From a virus, in IMG/VR virus record IMGVR_UViG_3300038856_000027, positions 1 through 20,683 of that record: a stretch of 20,683 nt of DNA; one strand, given 5' to 3'. A model generated the notes under the pieces. That model had not been told where the DNA came from. It did no database searches and saw only the letters and a program-made list of their open reading frames with translations. Positions 4,223 through 20,501 of this stretch are shown here, one piece after another. A program made the position numbers and the translations under genes. The first letter of the stretch is position 1. Each line of letters starts with the position of its first letter.

Positions 4223-4876
4223 TCAGGAATCGTTATCGTAATCATAGTACCGGTTGTTCCCGCCGATACTGGTCAGGCCCGGATCGACCGTGGCCATTGC
4301 ACGGTGCTGTTGGGCAATGATGTTGCGAACCGATGGCAGGCCGGCTTGCAGGATGGATGCATATTTCGCTACCCGGTCGTCGTCCTCCGTATACATACCT
4401 CCCCACATGATACAGGCCGCCAGATAGACGTCTGGATGGTTGGTGAGCAGCCAGTTTGTCGTAGCACTATCGGATAGGGTGAAGCGTTCCCGGTATTGAA
4501 AACGGAAGGAGTAGGCTTGGTCGCACGGACGGTTGAAATTGATTTCCTCGTCGTCGCTGTCGTAGGACCACATCTCCGGTTCATCGGATGTGCTGTCATA
4601 GGCGAACGTGTTCTTTTTCGTCAGCCTGATTTCATCGCCGGAACTGGTTTCCGTGAGATAAAGCGCCATCGGTTCGACAATCGACAGGGACGAGACGTCA
4701 ATGGTTCGGCTGTCTACCGTGCCCGTCAGCGTTGCCTCTTCCTCCACCGGGTTCAGTTCCCGGTTCAGATGCGATTCCGCAAGCGTCACCCAGTCGGCAA
4801 CGTTGCCAGTCACGTCAGACCGGTGCATCCAGTCTGAGACGGCTGCCTTGAGTTCATCGTATGTGCTGAGTGCCAT
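4223..4876 (-). CDS. Head-tail adaptor / tail accessory protein (phage adaptor family, P22 gp4-like)
   Basis: A 217-aa protein beginning MALSTYDELKAAVSDWMHRS, then WVTLAESHLNRELNP, the helical signature of the phage head-tail adaptor proteins that bind under the portal ring in podoviruses. The middle is beta-rich and acidic (DEPEMWSYDSDDEEINF), and helices return in the C-terminal part (TNHPDVYLAACIMWGGMYTE, then a helix ending near IIAQQHRAMA). The family is normally about 170-220 aa, so this is full length. GGAG lies eight bases before the ATG, inside the end of the glycosyltransferase gene. It is flanked by that gene and the propeller-like tail protein. Role: bridging portal and tail after DNA packaging. 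Confidence 0.78.
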   Translation of the reverse strand: MALSTYDELKAAVSDWMHRSDVTGNVADWVTLAESHLNRELNPVEEEATLTGTVDSRTIDVSSLSIVEPMALYLTETSSGDEIRLTKKNTFAYDSTSDEPEMWSYDSDDEEINFNRPCDQAYSFRFQYRERFTLSDSATTNWLLTNHPDVYLAACIMWGGMYTEDDDRVAKYASILQAGLPSVRNIIAQQHRAMATVDPGLTSIGGNNRYYDYDNDS

Positions 4877-4879
4877 TGT

Positions 4880-6238
4880 TCAGGCTCCAAGGCGGCCTAT
4901 TACAAACGGGCGCGGCCCGTTCTTGATTGTTTCCCATTGCCCCGGACCCTGCATGTCCCTGATATCGTCAAGGATAGCGATGGCACCGGGCTTGACGATG
5001 CCGCGACCGAGATTGTCCTTGCGCAGCATCCATAGCCGGTCAACGTTGCGTACTTCAAGCCCAACCGGGCTGACAAGATGGTCGTCGCTTATCGAGCCTG
5101 AGCGGCGCGGCCCGTCAACAACCATCATGTCGGCTTCAATGCCGTCCAGTGCTTCCCCGACATTGTACCAACTGCCGTTCATGGGCGCGACACGGATATC
5201 AGCCTCAAGGCTGTGTTCGGTCATTATCGCATCACATTCTTCTGCCCATTTGCCGGATTCCTCAATCGCGATAACCTTGCGGCCCGTCGATGCCAGGATA
5301 ATGGTTGAAAGGCCCGTGCCGCACTCCAGTATTGTAGCGTCCTCGTCTAACGACATGGCCATCTGCCAAGCCGAGAACAGGAACTCCGGCCTACATGCCC
5401 ATGGCTTGTTTCCGTAGGCATTGGCCAGCCGGTAGAAATCTGCGATATTGGGCTTTTCGGTCTTGAGAAAGATTTTCAGGACATCCCCGAAATCTTCCTT
5501 GTACATCGGGACAGGGTCTCCGCTGCCGGTCGTGTGGTTTACCGCATTATCCGGGTTTGCCAGATATTCGGAGAAATTGCCCCTCCACATATTTTCCCCG
5601 ATGTGGCCCAATGTCAGGGTCGGGTCAATGTGGATCTTGCCGCCGGCTGCAATCCATTTGCGGCAGAACGTGACGTCACCGCCATCATAGGAGTGATCTG
5701 TATAACAGCGCTCGAAAAAGCGCCTGCTCTGGTTGAGGGTGCCGACTTCGTAATAATTGGGAGACAGGGTTTCGAAAACGCTCCGGGGGATGCGCATGAA
5801 CCCGGTTGGTGCATAGGATACGCTGAGCAATGCCTTGCGGTGTTTCGCGCTCTTGATGCCGCCTTCGACCAACCGCCCGACAGGGAATTCCCCGCTGTTC
5901 GATTTATACCGGTATGCACCGGCTACAACGTCGCTGGTCTTGTGTTGGATCAGCTTCAGGAACGCATCCGGTTCCCACATCATGTCCGCGTCGATGAACA
6001 CCAGATCCGTGCATTGCGTATTTTCAAGGAAATCGCGCACCATTTCATTTCGCCCGTCATCAACGTGGCAGTTGTTGAACATGATGTTGATGGTATGCGG
6101 GATATGATGTCTGGTCAGTTCCGAGACAGTCTTTGCCAAGCTGAGCGCATAGCCCGCCTTGACGCTCTCATAAGCAGCGGTTGCGATATAGACAGACTGT
6201 CCGACCGTTTCCAGGCCAGCGGCACGATATGACGGCAT
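4880..6238 (-). CDS. Fused GT-A glycosyltransferase and class I SAM-methyltransferase-like protein
   Basis: A 452-aa two-domain protein. Residues about 15-225 look like a GT-A glycosyltransferase: an N-terminal strand VYIATAAYES, the metal-binding DxD motif in LVFIDADMMWEPD (DAD at 83-85), an acceptor segment SYAPTGFMRIPRSVF, and the late GGDVTFCRKW...LTLGHIG block with the second metal/catalytic positions. Residues about 270-450 look like a Rossmann methyltransferase: ATILECGTGLSTIILA (301-316, SAM-binding motif I), KVIAIEES (motif II) and MMVVDGPRR (371-379, motif IV-like). The ATG is preceded by AGGAG. It sits among assembly genes between a coat-accessory gene and the head-tail adaptor, so the likely target is a virion protein or a host surface glycan made during late infection. 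The substrate cannot be read from the sequence. Confidence 0.75.
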   Translation of the reverse strand: MPSYRAAGLETVGQSVYIATAAYESVKAGYALSLAKTVSELTRHHIPHTINIMFNNCHVDDGRNEMVRDFLENTQCTDLVFIDADMMWEPDAFLKLIQHKTSDVVAGAYRYKSNSGEFPVGRLVEGGIKSAKHRKALLSVSYAPTGFMRIPRSVFETLSPNYYEVGTLNQSRRFFERCYTDHSYDGGDVTFCRKWIAAGGKIHIDPTLTLGHIGENMWRGNFSEYLANPDNAVNHTTGSGDPVPMYKEDFGDVLKIFLKTEKPNIADFYRLANAYGNKPWACRPEFLFSAWQMAMSLDEDATILECGTGLSTIILASTGRKVIAIEESGKWAEECDAIMTEHSLEADIRVAPMNGSWYNVGEALDGIEADMMVVDGPRRSGSISDDHLVSPVGLEVRNVDRLWMLRKDNLGRGIVKPGAIAILDDIRDMQGPGQWETIKNGPRPFVIGRLGA

Positions 6239-6289
6239 TGCATCTCCTTGTGTGTGAAATGGGAGGGGCCGAAACCCCTCCCGGTTGGT

Positions 6290-6628
6290 TTACGAACTGG
6301 CGAACAGTCCGAGTGCGCGCAGTTTGGTAATCAACTGGTTGATGGCAACGGCCTGCGCCGCGCTATCGGTAATAAGCCTGTTGATTGCCTCTGCCTGCAA
6401 CTGCGAATCGACCAGAACCGCCTCAACAGCGGTCGTGTTGACCGTAGTGCCGTTATAGGCGGTTGTAATTGCGGTTGAATCGACCGTGGTAATGGCAGTG
6501 GAATCGACAGTCGTCACAACCGCCTGCTTCGCCGTTACGGTTGTTACACCGAAAAAGCTGCCTTTTTCGCCGCTGCGAAACACCACGGACCCATCCGGGC
6601 CGCCGTCGCTGAGATATTGAATAGCCAT
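6290..6628 (-). CDS. Small head fiber-like virion protein
   Basis: A 112-aa protein beginning MAIQYLSDGGPDGSVVFRSG, an N-terminus common to small proteins encoded just after the coat gene in many phages. The middle is Thr/Val/Ala-rich and contains a perfect tandem repeat of VDSTAITT (residues 41-48 and 49-56). The C-terminal third is helical (QLQAEAINRLITDSAAQAVA, then INQLITKLRALGLF) and probably trimerises as a coiled coil. This fits a short fiber or decoration protein on the capsid. GGAG lies six bases before the ATG. There is a 51-base gap to the glycosyltransferase start. The fiber role is inferred from the domain layout. Confidence 0.55.
   Translation of the reverse strand: MAIQYLSDGGPDGSVVFRSGEKGSFFGVTTVTAKQAVVTTVDSTAITTVDSTAITTAYNGTTVNTTAVEAVLVDSQLQAEAINRLITDSAAQAVAINQLITKLRALGLFASS
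6461..6508 (-). repeat. Two tandem 24-bp in-frame repeats encoding VDSTAITT
   Basis: Two adjacent 24-base units encode identical octapeptides within the small fiber-like gene. The DNA copies differ at a few third-codon positions, so the protein repeat is conserved better than the DNA. The unit is in frame, so copy-number change by slippage would lengthen or shorten the protein shaft without breaking it. Confidence 0.8.
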
Positions 6629-7984: not shown

Positions 7985-8926
7985 TTAGCCAGACTTGTAC
8001 CCTTGGGCTTTCCGTGCCTTGACGTATTCATCCATCGACATGTCCGAGAACGCTTTGCGCACCGGGGCGTTCGAGCGGGATGAAACGGTCTTGAGCGGCA
8101 CGGCCTGCTTGCGGGGCGGTGTGGCCGGTCCTTTAAGGGTTTCTTCGCCAATCATGGCTTTGTGCAAGATGCTGAAGACAACCGGGCTGATGTTGGATTG
8201 CAGTTGTTCCTGTGTAAGGCCCTGTTCCAACGCAAATTCAGCTACGCGCTTCTCCATCTCGTTATTGAAGCCCTTGATGTTTTTCTGTGCATACTCCCGC
8301 GTTTGGCCGATGCGCTTGGCAAGGTCTTGCTGCGCTTCCTGGCTACGCTTGGTTGCGAATTCATCCAGTTGCTGCTTTCTCTCGCCGGAGCGGCGGATCA
8401 AGTCCTCGTACTGGAAACGAGCTTTCTGGGCTGCAACCGGTTCCTGATCCGCCCATGCCGACCAGTCAATATCTTCATATTGCTTGATTGCAGCATCGAA
8501 CGCCCAGGCTTCCGCCCGCAGTTCCATTTCTTCATCGGTTGCCTTGGCTCGCTCCTGAACGGATTGCTCGAATGCTTCGAGTTCCTTCCGGCGTTCCGCG
8601 ACTTCCTGTGTTTTCTTCGTATAATCGGCGTGCATCATCACGCCGTCCTTGAGGCCTTTTGGCCCCATTATCGTCTTGCCGTCCCATTCGAATTCCTCAA
8701 GCTGGTCCTCGTCGGACTCTTGAGTATCTTCGTCAGTTTCGGGTTCGCCTTCCGGTTCCGCCTCGCCTTCATCGTTCTGAGGTTCGTCAACCTGCTCCGG
8801 TTCCTCGGACGTTGGCTGTTCGTCAGGTTCTTCGGATTGTCCGCTGTCTTCAACGGGTTCCGGTTTATCTGCAAACGGCTGTTCCGTGGCCGGGATGAAA
8901 GGGATAGGGGCTTCTTCTTCAGACAT
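7985..8926 (-). CDS. Scaffolding protein
   Basis: A 313-aa protein. The first 80 residues are extremely acidic and Glu/Pro/Asp/Gln-rich. The middle (about 95-240) is charged and helical with coiled-coil character (TKKTQEVAERRKELEAFEQS, later RRSGERKQQLDEFATKRSQE). The C-terminus is basic and Ser-rich, ending DMSMDEYVKARKAQGYKSG. Scaffolding proteins of P22-like phages are mostly helical, have a C-terminal coat-binding segment, lie directly before the coat gene, and are of this size (P22 gp8 is 303 aa). The protein would direct procapsid assembly and then leave. GAAGGAG lies 8-10 bases before the ATG. The very acidic N-terminal tail is longer than I would expect from P22 itself. Confidence 0.82.
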   Translation of the reverse strand: MSEEEAPIPFIPATEQPFADKPEPVEDSGQSEEPDEQPTSEEPEQVDEPQNDEGEAEPEGEPETDEDTQESDEDQLEEFEWDGKTIMGPKGLKDGVMMHADYTKKTQEVAERRKELEAFEQSVQERAKATDEEMELRAEAWAFDAAIKQYEDIDWSAWADQEPVAAQKARFQYEDLIRRSGERKQQLDEFATKRSQEAQQDLAKRIGQTREYAQKNIKGFNNEMEKRVAEFALEQGLTQEQLQSNISPVVFSILHKAMIGEETLKGPATPPRKQAVPLKTVSSRSNAPVRKAFSDMSMDEYVKARKAQGYKSG

Positions 8927-16104: not shown

Positions 16105-16563
16105 TTAGTCACGTTTGTCATATTCCCGTTTGATACGGCTGATATATTGGACGTCAGTATTATATTTTGCGGCTAAAGCCAGATGGCTTTCTTCCGATGC
16201 GCGAATTTCTGAGATTTCCTTTTCAAAGAAACGCTGCCTCCAACGCCCACCGCCTCGAAGCACACCATGTCGTTTGGCATCTGCCATATTCTTGATCGCA
16301 TCACCCCAATATAGATGCATTGGGTTCACGCAAAGTTTGTTACCACATTTGTGGGCTGCTTGACTTTTGTCGTGTGGAGCCGGCCCATGAGCCTGTTCGC
16401 AGGCATAGCGATGAGCGTCAACGTTTCGCCTTCCATCGCCCCGACCAACACTATGAGCGCCATAACCGCTCGACTTCCGAACCGCAAAGGGCCAAATTAT
16501 ACAACTATCGGATTCGGCAACCCTAGCATCAGAAATAAACTGCTCACGCTTAGAACCAGCCAT
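16105..16563 (-). CDS. HNH homing-type endonuclease
   Basis: A 152-aa protein from the ATG giving MAGSKREQFISDARVAESDS, seven bases after GGGAG; six codons upstream the frame offers only TTG. It contains AHRYACEQAHGPAP, then AAHKCGNKLCVNPMHLYWGD and IKNMADAKRHG. The His-His-Asn/His positions, together with the Cys pairs in HKCGNKLC, match zinc-containing HNH endonucleases of the phage homing type. The last 40 residues (SEESHLALAAKYNTDVQYIS, then RIKREYD) form a helix-turn-helix for target recognition. Such enzymes cut related phage genomes lacking the gene and spread by repair. The gene overlaps the large terminase 3' end by 67 bases in another frame. Confidence 0.85.
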   Translation of the reverse strand: MAGSKREQFISDARVAESDSCIIWPFAVRKSSGYGAHSVGRGDGRRNVDAHRYACEQAHGPAPHDKSQAAHKCGNKLCVNPMHLYWGDAIKNMADAKRHGVLRGGGRWRQRFFEKEISEIRASEESHLALAAKYNTDVQYISRIKREYDKRD

Positions 16564-17870
16564 GCAATAACTCCCATCCAACTTCCTGCACCGTGGTAAG
16601 CGCGCTCTTTCGGTTTCTTCGCTTCCTGCGGCTTCTCATAGGCAACGCACATCAGGCCGAAGCCATCGGCGAAATGACTTGACCAATCGTGTTCGGGGCC
16701 AAGGCCATGCCCTAGTTCGTGCTTCTTCTCGTGATACCAGCCGAGCGCATCGCGGAGCGGTTCGGTTGTCTTCTCATTGAACCAGATGCTTGGGAACAGC
16801 CGGCGAGCCGCTTCAATGCGAAGCTTGGCAGCGCCCTTGCCCTGGTTGCCGATTACGTCAACTTCGAAGTCTGCTTCAACGAGGGCAGACCGGTAACTGA
16901 CGTCGTGCACTCTGTCGTTGGTGTCCCCGTCATGTGGCAAAATACATAGCGCTTTGCTGTAGCCATTTTCACGCAACCAAGCGACATGCGTAGCAAGAGG
17001 CTGACCGACCGCTTCATAGCAGTCCAGAACGCGGATTTCCCGGCCCACAAACTGCGCAATGATGATTGTACACGCATCTGCTTTTGCTCCTGTGCCGCCG
17101 ATGTCCCAGAACGCACGATACGTCATGAGCGGGTCTGGTGATACGTTCCCGATGCGGTTGGCGTTCTTTGCTGCGGTTAGTGAGGCAGCGTAGTAAGCCC
17201 CTTCAACAACCGTCACGAAGTCGCCTTCCCAGACATGCTCATATTGTTCCGGGCGCTTGGCCAAGTCCTCGTTACGCTCGAACTCCAGTTCAGCCGGGAA
17301 CCACGGATTGTCCCGCCAGTTCAGTTCTATAATCTTTGAGCCTGTCGGTGGATCGGCCCTGAACCGCAGGTGCGTTGCGCTGTTCTTGCGCTCCGGGTTC
17401 CAGGTAACCCAGATTTCAGATCCAGCCTCACGAATTGTCGGGATGGTGACGCGCCATGCCGTTTCGCTTATCTGTTCCGCTTCGTCGGCCCAGAACAGCC
17501 GTATAAGGCCCTTGGACTTGATGGAGGCCAGATTGTGCCTGAGACCGCTAAAGGCATACTCTATCCGCTTGTCGCGCGTCCTGATGAACCTGTCGCCTAT
17601 CTCGTAATGATCGGCCAGCCACTCTTCGGAAAGGATTGATGCGCGTATCTCTGCAAACGAACTGTCAGCCAGCGAGTTCATGAATTCACGACCGCAGACG
17701 ATTAGGCCTTCTTCACCAGCCATGGAGAGCTGATAGCCTCGCACGGCAGTCATCTTAGCAAAGGAACGTGTCTTGCCTGAACCGCGCCCGCCATATGCAC
17801 CGCGATAGCGAGCCTCGCCCAGGAACACAGGAACTAGTTTGGGCGGTAACTCAACTCTCGCCGTTGCCAC
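16497..17870 (-). CDS. terL: Terminase large subunit (packaging ATPase and nuclease)
   Basis: A 457-aa protein that must start at GTG, as no ATG is available before residue 40. The N-terminal ATPase has Walker A GGRGSGKT (27-34), Walker B LIRLFWADE (122-130) and coupling motif VTWNPE (155-160). The RNase H-like nuclease has acidic residues in AFWDIGGTG (D256), LPHDGDTND (D314) and DWSSHFADGF (D395/D402). It powers DNA translocation into the procapsid and cuts headful ends. It overlaps the small subunit by 20 bases. The natural end resembles GAGSWM, but the frame continues 25 residues as a Leu/Val-rich tail (VIAWLVLSVSSLFLML) that overlaps the HNH gene. That tail is probably an insertion by-product. 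Confidence 0.92.
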   Translation of the reverse strand: MATARVELPPKLVPVFLGEARYRGAYGGRGSGKTRSFAKMTAVRGYQLSMAGEEGLIVCGREFMNSLADSSFAEIRASILSEEWLADHYEIGDRFIRTRDKRIEYAFSGLRHNLASIKSKGLIRLFWADEAEQISETAWRVTIPTIREAGSEIWVTWNPERKNSATHLRFRADPPTGSKIIELNWRDNPWFPAELEFERNEDLAKRPEQYEHVWEGDFVTVVEGAYYAASLTAAKNANRIGNVSPDPLMTYRAFWDIGGTGAKADACTIIIAQFVGREIRVLDCYEAVGQPLATHVAWLRENGYSKALCILPHDGDTNDRVHDVSYRSALVEADFEVDVIGNQGKGAAKLRIEAARRLFPSIWFNEKTTEPLRDALGWYHEKKHELGHGLGPEHDWSSHFADGFGLMCVAYEKPQEAKKPKERAYHGAGSWMGVIAWLVLSVSSLFLMLGLPNPIVV

Positions 17871-18339
17871 CAGCTACCAACTCGATGGTATGCATGATCG
17901 GTCCTCCGCCCTCGCCGCCATGCTCGTGCTCAATCTTATCGCGCCAATCATCTCTGCGCCGGTTCTTCAACCAGAATATCATGGCCGTCGTGTCTGGTGG
18001 TTGGTAACGCTCCACCTCAACAACCTCAACCTCTTCCTCATACTGGGCTACTTTGATTTTGAATGCCTGCTCCTCCGTGAAGAAAAAACCTGACGCCCTC
18101 TGGTACAGGGAACGCTCAATCCGGTTGTCCGACTGCTCCTTACCAGCCTTTAGGGCCTGACAAAACGCATCACTATCCAGCTTCCAGCGGTATATCGTGC
18201 GAGTGGAAACGTCGAAGAACTCAGCAATTTCCTCGTCCGTTGCCCCCAATGCACAAAGCTTTTCAGCCTGCTCAACGAACGCTGGCTCAAACTTACTTGG
18301 CCTACCGCCTGCGCCCTTACTATCTTCGGCCTTAGCCAT
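17851..18339 (-). CDS. terS: Terminase small subunit
   Basis: A 162-aa protein beginning MAKAEDSKGAGGRPSKFEPA. The HTH ATDEEIAEFFDVSTRTIYRW (33-52) is the DNA-recognition motif of small terminases. It is followed by LKAGKEQSDNRIERSLYQRA and SGFFFTEEQ, common in terminase small subunits of proteobacterial phages. The part MIFWLKNRRRDDWRDK (about 120-135) is the typical C-terminal signature. It recognises the packaging start site and loads the large subunit. The GTG start of the large subunit lies 20 bases inside this gene, and its own ATG overlaps the preceding stop by eight bases. A pac or cos site would be expected in or near this gene; none can be identified by eye. Confidence 0.88.
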   Translation of the reverse strand: MAKAEDSKGAGGRPSKFEPAFVEQAEKLCALGATDEEIAEFFDVSTRTIYRWKLDSDAFCQALKAGKEQSDNRIERSLYQRASGFFFTEEQAFKIKVAQYEEEVEVVEVERYQPPDTTAMIFWLKNRRRDDWRDKIEHEHGGEGGGPIMHTIELVAGGNGES

Positions 18340-18726: not shown

Positions 18727-18993
18727 CTACTTCCGTTTCCCCATGCCGCCGTGTTTGTCGCCGTCGTGGCTGGTGTGGCGCCCTGTCACGTCTCCATCGC
18801 GGCTGTCGGGCTTTCCAGGCTTGTCCGGCTTGGAGACAGTGCGCTTGGCCTTGCTGAGGCTGGAACGGGCAGGCTCATGGTCTTCACACCATGCAGGCAT
18901 GGATGAGCCGGACTGTGAGCAAATGTGCAGTTGGGCTGCTGATACGGGAGTTGCGAAGGCGATGATGCACAACGCTGCGAACAAATGTTTCAT
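18727..18993 (-). CDS. Small secreted protein with Sec signal peptide
   Basis: An 88-aa protein with a clear Sec signal: MKHLFAALCIIAFATPVSA, then AQLHICSQSG. Cleavage after A-x-A near residue 19 would release about 69 residues. There is no cysteine at the cleavage site, so it is not a lipoprotein. The mature part has two cysteines (HICSQSGSSMPAWCEDHE) that could form a disulfide. It then becomes a Lys/Asp/Gly/Pro/His-rich disordered tail (KPDKPGKPDSRDGDVTGRHT, ending GGMGKRK). A phage gene making a periplasmic protein is likely to modify the host envelope, for example in superinfection exclusion or lysis. The start overlaps the previous stop (ATGA). Function unknown. Confidence 0.65.
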   Translation of the reverse strand: MKHLFAALCIIAFATPVSAAQLHICSQSGSSMPAWCEDHEPARSSLSKAKRTVSKPDKPGKPDSRDGDVTGRHTSHDGDKHGGMGKRK

Positions 18994-19334
18994 TTCAGTT
19001 TCCTCAGTGCATTGGCTATTGCTTTGGATTGGGGAAAGGGGCCAACGCCTTCCTGCGCTTCCCTAACAAGTTGGTTGTCGATGGAGACGCCGCACGGCAT
19101 ACCTTGCGCATTGAGGATGATATCCACGCCCGGCGCAATCTGGTGGTAGATGTGCATTTCGTCGGTGAACACCATCTCCATGCGGTCGCTCTCGTCGTAG
19201 TCGATGATGCAGGGCGTGAACGCGGCATCGGTGGGCGTATTATTAATCATCACAAGGCCCATAGGCTTTTCCCAATCTGGATAACCGTTCTCGCCTATGG
19301 CTGGCTTGCAAGGATTGTCGGTCATCGGATTCAT
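18990..19334 (-). CDS. Hypothetical 114-aa protein, first gene after the structured leader
   Basis: A 114-aa protein from the ATG giving MNPMTDNPCKPAIGENGYPD; AGGAG precedes this ATG by two bases and the next in-frame ATG (three codons later) by 11, so the true start may be either. The open frame extends 40 codons up only through a TTG. It contains MGLVMINNTPTDAAFTPCII and HIYHQIAPGVDIILNAQGMP, a beta-rich pattern with acidic turns, and ends SKAIANALRKLK. No recognised domain. It is the first gene after the hairpin-rich leader, and its stop overlaps the secreted protein's start by four bases. Confidence 0.65.
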   Translation of the reverse strand: MNPMTDNPCKPAIGENGYPDWEKPMGLVMINNTPTDAAFTPCIIDYDESDRMEMVFTDEMHIYHQIAPGVDIILNAQGMPCGVSIDNQLVREAQEGVGPFPQSKAIANALRKLK

Positions 19335-19692
19335 CACTCCTATGAGAAAGCACAGGGAGGAAGACGGGACGCCCCACTCCCTCCGGCAGGCTGGGTATCT
19401 TCTGGGCCGAAGCCCGATCCTGCGCCTGCGAACCGGTGCTCCGGTTCTGTGCAATCAGTTCAAGACGGGCCGGGTGCTCCCGACTGGCGGCCTTCGTTGC
19501 ATCCGCTGTACTCGCAAGCTATGCGAGCCACCGCCTTGATGGTGTCAAAGCAGTAACCAAAGTCTAGCCGTATCGAACGGCTTTCACACGCCTAGGTCTT
19601 GTGTGCTGCATTCCGCGCTTAACTCTGGCCCTGCTTTGATTCTATACCGCCGGAGCGGTGAAATCCTGTTTCATCCACATTTCTGCCGATGA
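19335..19692 (-). ncRNA. Hairpin-rich non-coding leader RNA candidate
   Basis: About 360 bases with no convincing gene lie between a TTGACA promoter and the first gene below it. On the minus-strand transcript I find six perfect hairpins in order: 19659-19646 (5-bp stem), 19605-19585 (5-bp stem, 11-base loop with CCTAGG), 19582-19566 (5-bp stem, loop TTCGATA), 19527-19511 (6-bp stem), 19447-19430 (7-bp stem) and 19415-19404 (4-bp GC stem capped by a C-TTCG-G tetraloop). No T-run follows any of them, so they are not intrinsic terminators. Candidate roles are an antitermination leader for the late operon, a leader sensing something, or a small phage RNA. Low coding potential and stacked stems are what I see; the function is inferred. 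Confidence 0.5.
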
Positions 19693-19698
19693 TGAGTT

Positions 19699-19727
19699 AC
19701 AGTCCCTGATTTGAGAAAACTTGTCAA
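19699..19727 (-). promoter_or_regulatory. Promoter candidate for the late operon
   Basis: Read on the minus strand, a perfect TTGACA (19727-19722) is followed after 17 bases by GACTGT (19704-19699). The -10 box is weak by the E. coli consensus, but the combination would fit an alphaproteobacterial promoter. Transcription would begin near 19692 and run through the hairpin leader into the terminase and structural genes. It lies just after the stop of the zinc-ribbon-like gene. A second TTGACA (19548-19543) has no good partner box. Confidence 0.5.
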
Positions 19728-19731
19728 GGGT

Positions 19732-19902
19732 TCAACTTTTATACGCCCTGCCCTTTCCACATCGCTTGCAGCGGTACAGCCACTTCGTTTCGCAGGGCCG
19801 ATTGTCATCAGGACTTTCGTATATATTGGAACGTTGCATAAGTTCCCAATCGTGCTCGCAACGTGGCGGCCAAATGAACGTATCCCAAAGCCATTGAAGC
19901 AT
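19732..19902 (-). CDS. 56-aa zinc-ribbon-like phage protein
   Basis: A 56-aa frame beginning MLQWLWDTFIWPPRCEHDWE and ending WLYRCKRCGKGRAYKS. Cys15 and His17 (RCEHDW) together with the C-terminal CKRCGK make a likely zinc-binding knuckle of the kind found in very small phage and prophage proteins (C-x-H-x-W plus C-x-x-C-G). The N-terminal Trp/Leu/Phe-rich helix is short and amphipathic. Its ATG overlaps the stop of the 199-aa gene (TGATG), and AAGGAGG lies about seven bases upstream inside that gene. It is the last gene before the late promoter. A nucleic-acid or host-factor contact role is plausible but not shown. Confidence 0.65.
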   Translation of the reverse strand: MLQWLWDTFIWPPRCEHDWELMQRSNIYESPDDNRPCETKWLYRCKRCGKGRAYKS

Positions 19903-20501
19903 CACGCCGCCCTCCTTTCCGCTCCTGAGAGCATGGCCGAAACTACGTTCATTGCCTCCCGGAAATCTCCGGCAAGTGACAAGGTTTCAACATTTTCTAT
20001 CGCTATCGTCTTGGCTGCGAACCAGTGAAGTTTACCGGAACGAAGCAATGCACCACGGACAGCCGACCATTGCGCCCGCTTGCGCTTGCACCAGTCCACA
20101 TACTCCGGGTCTGTGCCGTCCAGGTCCAGGGGCTTGCCGCCTTTCGGTTTATCGCCCGCTGGCGTCCTTGGAAGGTCCGGGCAGCGTATTGCCTTCAGGT
20201 TGTCGAAATAAAGCCTCTGGAGCGCTTCAGCGGCCTTGTAGTGGTGTTCCTGGATGAGTGTAGCCCCGTCCACTACCCGCTTGGACCAGCGCCATGCTAC
20301 GATGGGAGAAAGAGCGTCCTTTGCCAGATCCTCGGATATGCCCAGGTGCTTCTGACGTTGTTCAATGACGACCGCGAGGTTTTCCTGTTCCCGTTCCCGC
20401 GCCCGGCGGCGCTTTTCCGCCTTGGTGAGGTCCCCGTTCGCATAGCGCTCGCCCGCCGTGCGCGGCCTCCCGCCCTTGTTCCTCTTGCCGCGTTTTGTCA
20501 T
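19902..20501 (-). CDS. Hypothetical 199-aa basic protein
   Basis: A 199-aa protein with a highly basic N-terminus (MTKRGKRNKGGRPRTAGERY) and then KAEKRRRAREREQENLAVVI, a charged helix. The middle has AWRWSKRVVDGATLIQEHHY, and the C-terminal half has EYVDWCKRKRAQWSAVRGAL and KTIAIENVETLSLAGDFREA. Lys/Arg clusters and paired Trp residues suggest nucleic-acid binding. GGRPRT-type starts are common on phage DNA-packaging and recombination proteins. I do not recognise a family. It starts two bases after the stop of the membrane gene and ends in a TGATG overlap, so it belongs to the transcript that comes in from the right edge. Confidence 0.6.
   Translation of the reverse strand: MTKRGKRNKGGRPRTAGERYANGDLTKAEKRRRAREREQENLAVVIEQRQKHLGISEDLAKDALSPIVAWRWSKRVVDGATLIQEHHYKAAEALQRLYFDNLKAIRCPDLPRTPAGDKPKGGKPLDLDGTDPEYVDWCKRKRAQWSAVRGALLRSGKLHWFAAKTIAIENVETLSLAGDFREAMNVVSAMLSGAERRAA

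Follow-up and report, generated by a model that had tools for sequence, protein, structure and literature searches.

The leader locus and its hairpins

The DNA analysed here (the window, 20,683 nt) is a virus record whose annotated minus-strand genes include the small and large terminase subunits (TerS and TerL) and a P22-like portal protein. The closest relatives of its TerL in bacterial genomes are found mainly in Rhizobiales and other Alphaproteobacteria. On the minus strand, about 390 non-coding bases (19335-19731) separate the open reading frame (ORF) of a 57-aa CxxC protein from an ORF of 113-116 aa (Table 1). No minus-strand frame is open across this leader from a plausible start, in agreement with the initial annotation of the gap as non-coding, and a protein coded across it was rejected for that reason. 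The 57-aa protein of CxxC/HD type encoded directly upstream shows weak similarity to several phage families of unknown function.

Table 1. Features of the leader and its flanking genes, listed in the direction of minus-strand transcription.
Feature	Position	Strand	Basis
57-aa CxxC protein, small, zinc-ribbon-like	19732-19905	-	phrog_8294, E 3.6e-5
TTGACA, perfect -35-like hexamer, no recognisable -10	19722-19727	-	sequence; promoter scan negative
Hairpin ACCGC-TCCG-GCGGT, upstream of the element	19646-19659	-	sequence and fold; no homologue found
Element with long outer closing helix	19545-19639	-	fold z -4.42, 0/200 shuffles; inverted repeat
Conserved tRNA-like core (closing stem, D-arm, variable arm, T-arm)	19560-19625	-	model R3, 65.2 bits; covariation in 10 distinct sequences
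D-arm-like hairpin CGCGGAATG	19609-19617	-	conserved RGAAT loop and CGY/GCG stem
Variable arm CACAC-(11 nt)-GTGTG	19585-19605	-	paired despite differing sequence (36/40 cells, 0/5000 shuffles)
T-arm AGCCG-TTCGATA-CGGCT, 5-bp stem and 7-nt T-loop	19566-19582	-	exact 17-mer scan; stem invariant in all members
Hairpin CTCGCA-TAGCT-TGCGAG	19511-19527	-	sequence and fold; no homologue found
Hairpin GAACCGG-AGCA-CCGGTTC	19430-19447	-	sequence and fold; model R2, no homologue
Hairpin GGGC-TTCG-GCCC (UUCG tetraloop)	19404-19415	-	sequence and fold; no homologue found
Last hairpin before the ribosome-binding site	19356-19384	-	fold; no homologue found
Shine-Dalgarno AGGAG and start codons (19334-19332 or 19325-19323) of the 113-116 aa gene (18990-19334)	19323-19341	-	sequence
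Terminase small subunit, downstream of the leader in the same direction	17851-18339	-	phrog_309, E 1.9e-57
Terminase large subunit	16497-17870	-	PF04466, E 1.1e-20; phrog_3717, E 2.1e-57

The promoter initially annotated directly upstream of the leader stands only in part: the TTGACA is a perfect -35 hexamer, but the hexamer at 17-nt spacing from it is GACTGT, and a sigma-70 scan found 0 sites where 0.9 were expected.

As minus-strand RNA, the leader reaches -167.4 kcal/mol against a mean of -138.0 for shuffled sequences (z -4.4; 0 of 100 shuffles as low), and in 150-nt windows folding is stronger on the minus than on the plus strand (-4.36 versus -2.73 and -3.57 versus -1.16). Folding energy alone would not single out the leader, since coding parts elsewhere in the window reach similar or lower z-scores in 150-nt windows, with a minimum of -6.5. 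This minimum lies at 8601-8750 (minus strand), inside a coding region of the late operon; further low-z spots occur at 4701-4850 (plus strand) and 6251-6400 (both strands). Within the leader the folding excess is concentrated at 19543-19641 (z -4.4), and the two domains closer to the gene are near chance (z -0.9 and -1.9). By sequence and fold, all six stems described in the initial annotation are present, including the one with the C-UUCG-G tetraloop. A model of the hairpins at 19355-19450 (R2) found no relative, and the hairpins at 19356-19540 and 19646-19659, which are without relatives, could be incidental.

A conserved 66-nt element and its relatives

BLASTN of the leader against phages and plasmids gave no real match, searches of viral contigs with the 113-aa ORF and a 199-aa ORF yielded no relatives, and neither the leader nor the 66-nt element within it occurs in some 160 TerS/TerL relatives. 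An exact scan of 2.9 million viral contigs with the T-arm 17-mer retrieved 11 contigs. In eight of these (six distinct) the upstream sequence, which had not been used in the search, again reads GAGCGYGGAATGC or close to it; this D-arm is followed by a differing hairpin, the T-arm and a differing closing stem, with order and spacing kept. Two further scans, in which either two stem positions or three loop positions were left free, added contigs L205 and L206 and phage phiN3, and a BLAST search with the consensus led to the Sinorhizobium phages phiM12, phiM7, phiM19 and phiN3 (Emdodecavirus, host S. meliloti), in all of which the element is intergenic. Ten distinct members are known in total, including the window; eight of the other nine come from metagenomic contigs only and one, the phiM12 group, from cultivated phages. 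Eight contigs (L187, L188, L189, L196, L197, L200, L208 and L209) in which the pattern is incomplete were set aside as chance matches. The exact T-arm 17-mer of L189 (3537-3553, minus strand) is located within a cluster of five phage tRNA genes, has no D-arm, and may be a decayed or divergent relative.

The members are well separated from other sequences by model score. Model R1, based on the window alone, gives the relatives 21-32 bits, contigs with the T-arm only 13-14 bits, and a best score of 15.4 in about 1.7 Mb of TerS/TerL loci; model R3 gives members 54-77 bits and everything else at most 25 bits. The pattern scan was negative in all 385 bacterial genomes searched, and R3, run with stricter filters on 289 and 398 genomes, gave a best score of 25 bits or nothing. 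The Alphaproteobacterial or other same-phylum genomes examined contained no element under these stricter filters, with no positive control among the genomes. The element is also absent from HK022 and from seven further phages that are relatives of the window or of L191, as well as from the 337-nt gap before terS in Sphingopyxis phage VSN-002, a similar-looking region that was rejected as unstructured (z 0.6). Searches of Rfam 15 gave no family match to the element that exceeds chance (E up to 5); sub-threshold matches (gntR-DTE at 23 bits and snoRNAs) are on the plus strand, far below the cut-off. No description of the element was found in open PMC text.

The consensus order of the members is closing stem, GA, D-arm (CGY/GCG stem, RGAWT loop), variable arm, GGA, T-arm, a single A and closing stem, with varying lengths of the closing stem and of the third-arm loop. 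The GG of the D-arm CGCGGAATG corresponds to G18 G19 of tRNA, its first G being replaced by A in three members. The T-arm combines a 5-bp stem with a T-loop of the form TTCRANN in the window; the loop begins with TTC in seven of the ten members and with TGC in three (variants TGCGATA and TGCAATA). In the window the closing stem extends into an outer helix of 19 bp with one bulge, the outer 9-bp arms of which lie at 19631-19639 and 19545-19553, and a long outer helix also surrounds the element in L195 and L194. By eye, the L194 element (5116-5177, minus strand) is placed inside an enclosing helix of ~24 bp (GGGTGGTTTGGATGGGCAGTACGG / CCGTACTGCCCTCCCAAACCACCC); another region enclosed in a similar way lies downstream of it, which gives the impression of a tandem of two large RNA domains.

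Downstream of the element, similarity between the window and its relatives is not significant. Only L190 (~6270-6310) and L198 (~1700-1750) share a second domain just past it, GGGGGYTAGTGGTTWTGACCACAAGGGMGG...CCCCCGCCA (alignment z 7.3), which indicates that the element can belong to a larger conserved RNA. L190 also has a near-identical 16-nt direct repeat, GTTTARAGATTTATGG, ahead of the element and ahead of the next structured domain.

Comparison of the members supports the named structure: 98% of the cells pair, whereas shuffled sequences give 78% and sliding the partner gives 23-43%, and 11 of the 17 pairs change on both sides. Since this alignment had been fitted to the structure of the window, the test was repeated with positions counted only from the conserved anchors. 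The closing stem is then paired in 37 of 40 cells, a value reached by 0 of 5000 shuffles, and the variable arm gives the anchor-based counts listed in Table 1. Among the members, 14 GU/UG pairs versus three CA/AC pairs point to RNA of the minus (element) strand rather than to a DNA structure. Compensatory changes, which the initial annotation had named as support for a structured leader, were thus found for one 66-nt element and not for the whole leader.

The invariance of the T-arm is partly a matter of ascertainment, because the scans required most of it; two pairs of the T-stem were left free in one scan and yet stay constant in true members. In the D-loop, the base that precedes the invariant G is a guanine where the T-loop has UUC (six members) and an adenine where it has UGC (three members), which makes nine of nine, one member having a gap. 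In tRNA, residues 18 and 55 touch, and 19-56 is the exposed elbow pair (PMC4810234). A joint change of the D-loop and T-loop position 55 is what an elbow would predict, with only three of the nine members carrying it, perhaps by shared ancestry.

We are thus confident that the leader carries a member of a previously undescribed phage RNA family, defined by a tRNA-like cloverleaf with a T-loop/D-loop elbow and by the lack of a 7-bp acceptor stem, an anticodon loop and a CCA end.

Genomic contexts and possible roles

Exactly one copy of the element is present in each of 14 whole records (29 to 242 kb), and the neighbouring genes of the members are mutually unrelated. A ribonucleotide reductase gene precedes the element in L198; in L191 it is flanked by a head protease gene upstream and cement and capsid genes downstream; a gene for a protein of unknown function, then exonuclease VIII, lies near it in L192; and small proteins of unknown function are the neighbours in other members. 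In eight of the ten members a start codon with a Shine-Dalgarno sequence lies downstream on the same strand. Five of the ten (L191, L192, L198, L205 and L206) have this sequence and the ATG within 18-66 nt of the element; the distance to the start codon is 184-234 nt in the window, L190 and phiM12, and L194 and L195 have no adjacent downstream gene. Several members are located mid-operon, 10-20 nt past a stop codon, and in L191, L198 and L206 the element comes after the stop codon of one gene and before the start codon of its successor.

In phiM12 the element is preceded by a promoter-like site (TTGACA-17-TATCGT, 10/12) and directly followed by a hairpin resembling a terminator, a layout that, judged from sequence, suggests a free-standing RNA of about 90 nt. 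No own promoter is evident for the element in the window, L191, L195, L198 and L206. The phiM12 element, at record positions 79755-79812 on the minus strand, is ~1.3 kb from a tRNA cluster, L195 has tRNA genes nearby, and L194 has a weak tRNA match about 210 nt away. About 30 nt past the phiM12 element (L201, 2556-2668) there is another tRNA-like piece, degenerate in form, in which a perfect T-arm (GGGTTCGAATCCC) is combined with a GTGGT/ACCAC acceptor followed by ACCA; it is unannotated and is called by neither ARAGORN nor Rfam.

We tentatively propose that the element is a tRNA-mimicking phage RNA that would act, mainly in trans, on host machinery that grips tRNA elbows. It would be made once per phage genome, either within an mRNA or, as the arrangement in phiM12 suggests, as a discrete RNA with a promoter of its own. 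With its putative tertiary elbow, it would then bind a host component that recognises both tRNA elbows and the invariant T-arm, for which the candidates are the ribosome, RNase P or Z, a tRNA-modifying enzyme or a tRNA-directed defence nuclease. Its effect would be mainly that of a competitor or decoy in trans rather than one on the adjacent gene. The single copy per genome, the unrelated neighbours and the phiM12 layout favour such a trans-acting RNA; the five members located 18-66 nt upstream of a Shine-Dalgarno sequence and start codon favour a cis role at least as much. A narrower version is conceivable but on the unlikely side: a free-acting elbow mimic, usually present in one copy per phage, would compete for a specific tRNA-binding factor of the host or disarm it, and this factor might be a defence directed at tRNA.

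The cis role would be that of a tRNA-like leader raising or gating translation of the next gene via the ribosome, and we regard it as rather unlikely. It has a direct precedent, since the yjdF aptamer is tRNA-like and tRNA-like elements upstream of a Shine-Dalgarno sequence raised translation 2- to 6.3-fold in vitro (PMC9142559). It would suit the five members close to a start and draws on the eight that precede one on the same strand, but is at odds with the unrelated downstream genes, the one copy per genome, the distant starts in the window, L190 and phiM12, and the lack of an adjacent gene in L194 and L195. The members between a stop and the next start also invite a reading as an RNA-processing or stability element that separates messages, either as a substrate for cleavage by host RNase P or RNase Z or as a block to exonucleases. 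An elbow with stacked closing and T stems is indeed what both enzymes grip (PMC4810234); closing stems of mostly 4-5 bp, and of 19 bp in the window, however, leave no fixed cleavage geometry, and we consider this role improbable.

The initial annotation had offered two roles for the leader. An antiterminator of the HK022 put type, modifying RNA polymerase for the late operon, would fit the window, where the leader heads the packaging operon in a promoter-proximal position, and phiM12, where a promoter-like site lies directly upstream; it is argued against by the tRNA-like cloverleaf fold, by the many members that are mid-operon rather than promoter-adjacent, by the absence of a good promoter in the window and by the lack of an R3 match in HK022, so that we consider it quite improbable. 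The other role, a separate phage small RNA, is supported in kind by the compensatory changes in the 66-nt element. The tRNA genes near the element in phiM12 and L195, together with the weak match in L194, could point to a functionless relic of phage tRNA genes, but across widely divergent phages the T-arm is invariant and the stems covary, a sign of selection, and no member has an anticodon loop or acceptor; a relic is therefore very improbable. Chance hairpins in GC-rich non-coding DNA would agree with the similar z-scores of coding regions and with the absence of homologues for most other leader hairpins. This explanation may hold for the hairpins at 19356-19540 and 19646-19659, but it is refuted for 19560-19625 by independent members with compensatory changes, and overall it is hardly credible.

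The element looks like a previously undescribed tool used by phages on their hosts. It would add to the known RNAs a family absent from Rfam 15 and common to unrelated phages, and its cultivated carriers phiM12, phiM7, phiM19 and phiN3 make it testable at once in a laboratory host. An invariant T-arm, present once per genome in unrelated neighbourhoods, raises the question of which host tRNA-handling component is targeted by the RNA. If a free-acting elbow mimic proves true, it would be an RNA counterpart of protein anti-defence genes.

Comparison with known systems

Plant viruses and a few bacterial mRNAs provide well-known cases of tRNA mimicry. The put RNAs of HK022 are two-hairpin antiterminators; the element resembles them in being a structured leader RNA of a phage near the beginning of an operon and differs by its four-way tRNA-like junction. 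The R3 search of the whole HK022 genome, which gave no match, probes for the element in HK022 and not for put in the window. The tRNA-like domain of tmRNA has a T-arm, a reduced D-arm and a third helix that replaces the anticodon arm, whereas the element is far smaller and has neither a reading frame nor a CCA end; the tmRNA search produced only a trivial partial match in one relative (11 bits). The bacterial Y RNA YrlA (RF02553) is a non-coding RNA with a tRNA-like module; the element differs in its short variable arm, and no Ro/Rsr-binding Y stem was identified in it. Neither the RF02553 model nor that of the yjdF (azaaromatic) riboswitch (RF01764) matches the window at E up to 10. The yjdF RNA, which resides in mRNA leaders and affects translation, is similar in its tRNA-like fold with equivalents of the D-loop and T-loop, and different in its conserved sequence; the element, in turn, occurs in phages with unrelated downstream genes.

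From tRNA itself the element differs in: i) a closing stem of mostly 4-5 bp (19 in the window) in place of the 7-bp acceptor, with one unpaired A between it and the T-stem, and ii) the absence of a 7-nt anticodon loop and of CCA, combined with an invariant T-stem sequence. ARAGORN and the Rfam tRNA model (RF00005) have no match in the window and none at the element in its relatives. The element nevertheless shares with tRNA the cloverleaf order of closing stem, D-arm, third arm and T-arm, the 5-bp T-stem with the T-loop TTCGATA, and the GG of the D-loop with its tRNA-like covariation with loop position 55.
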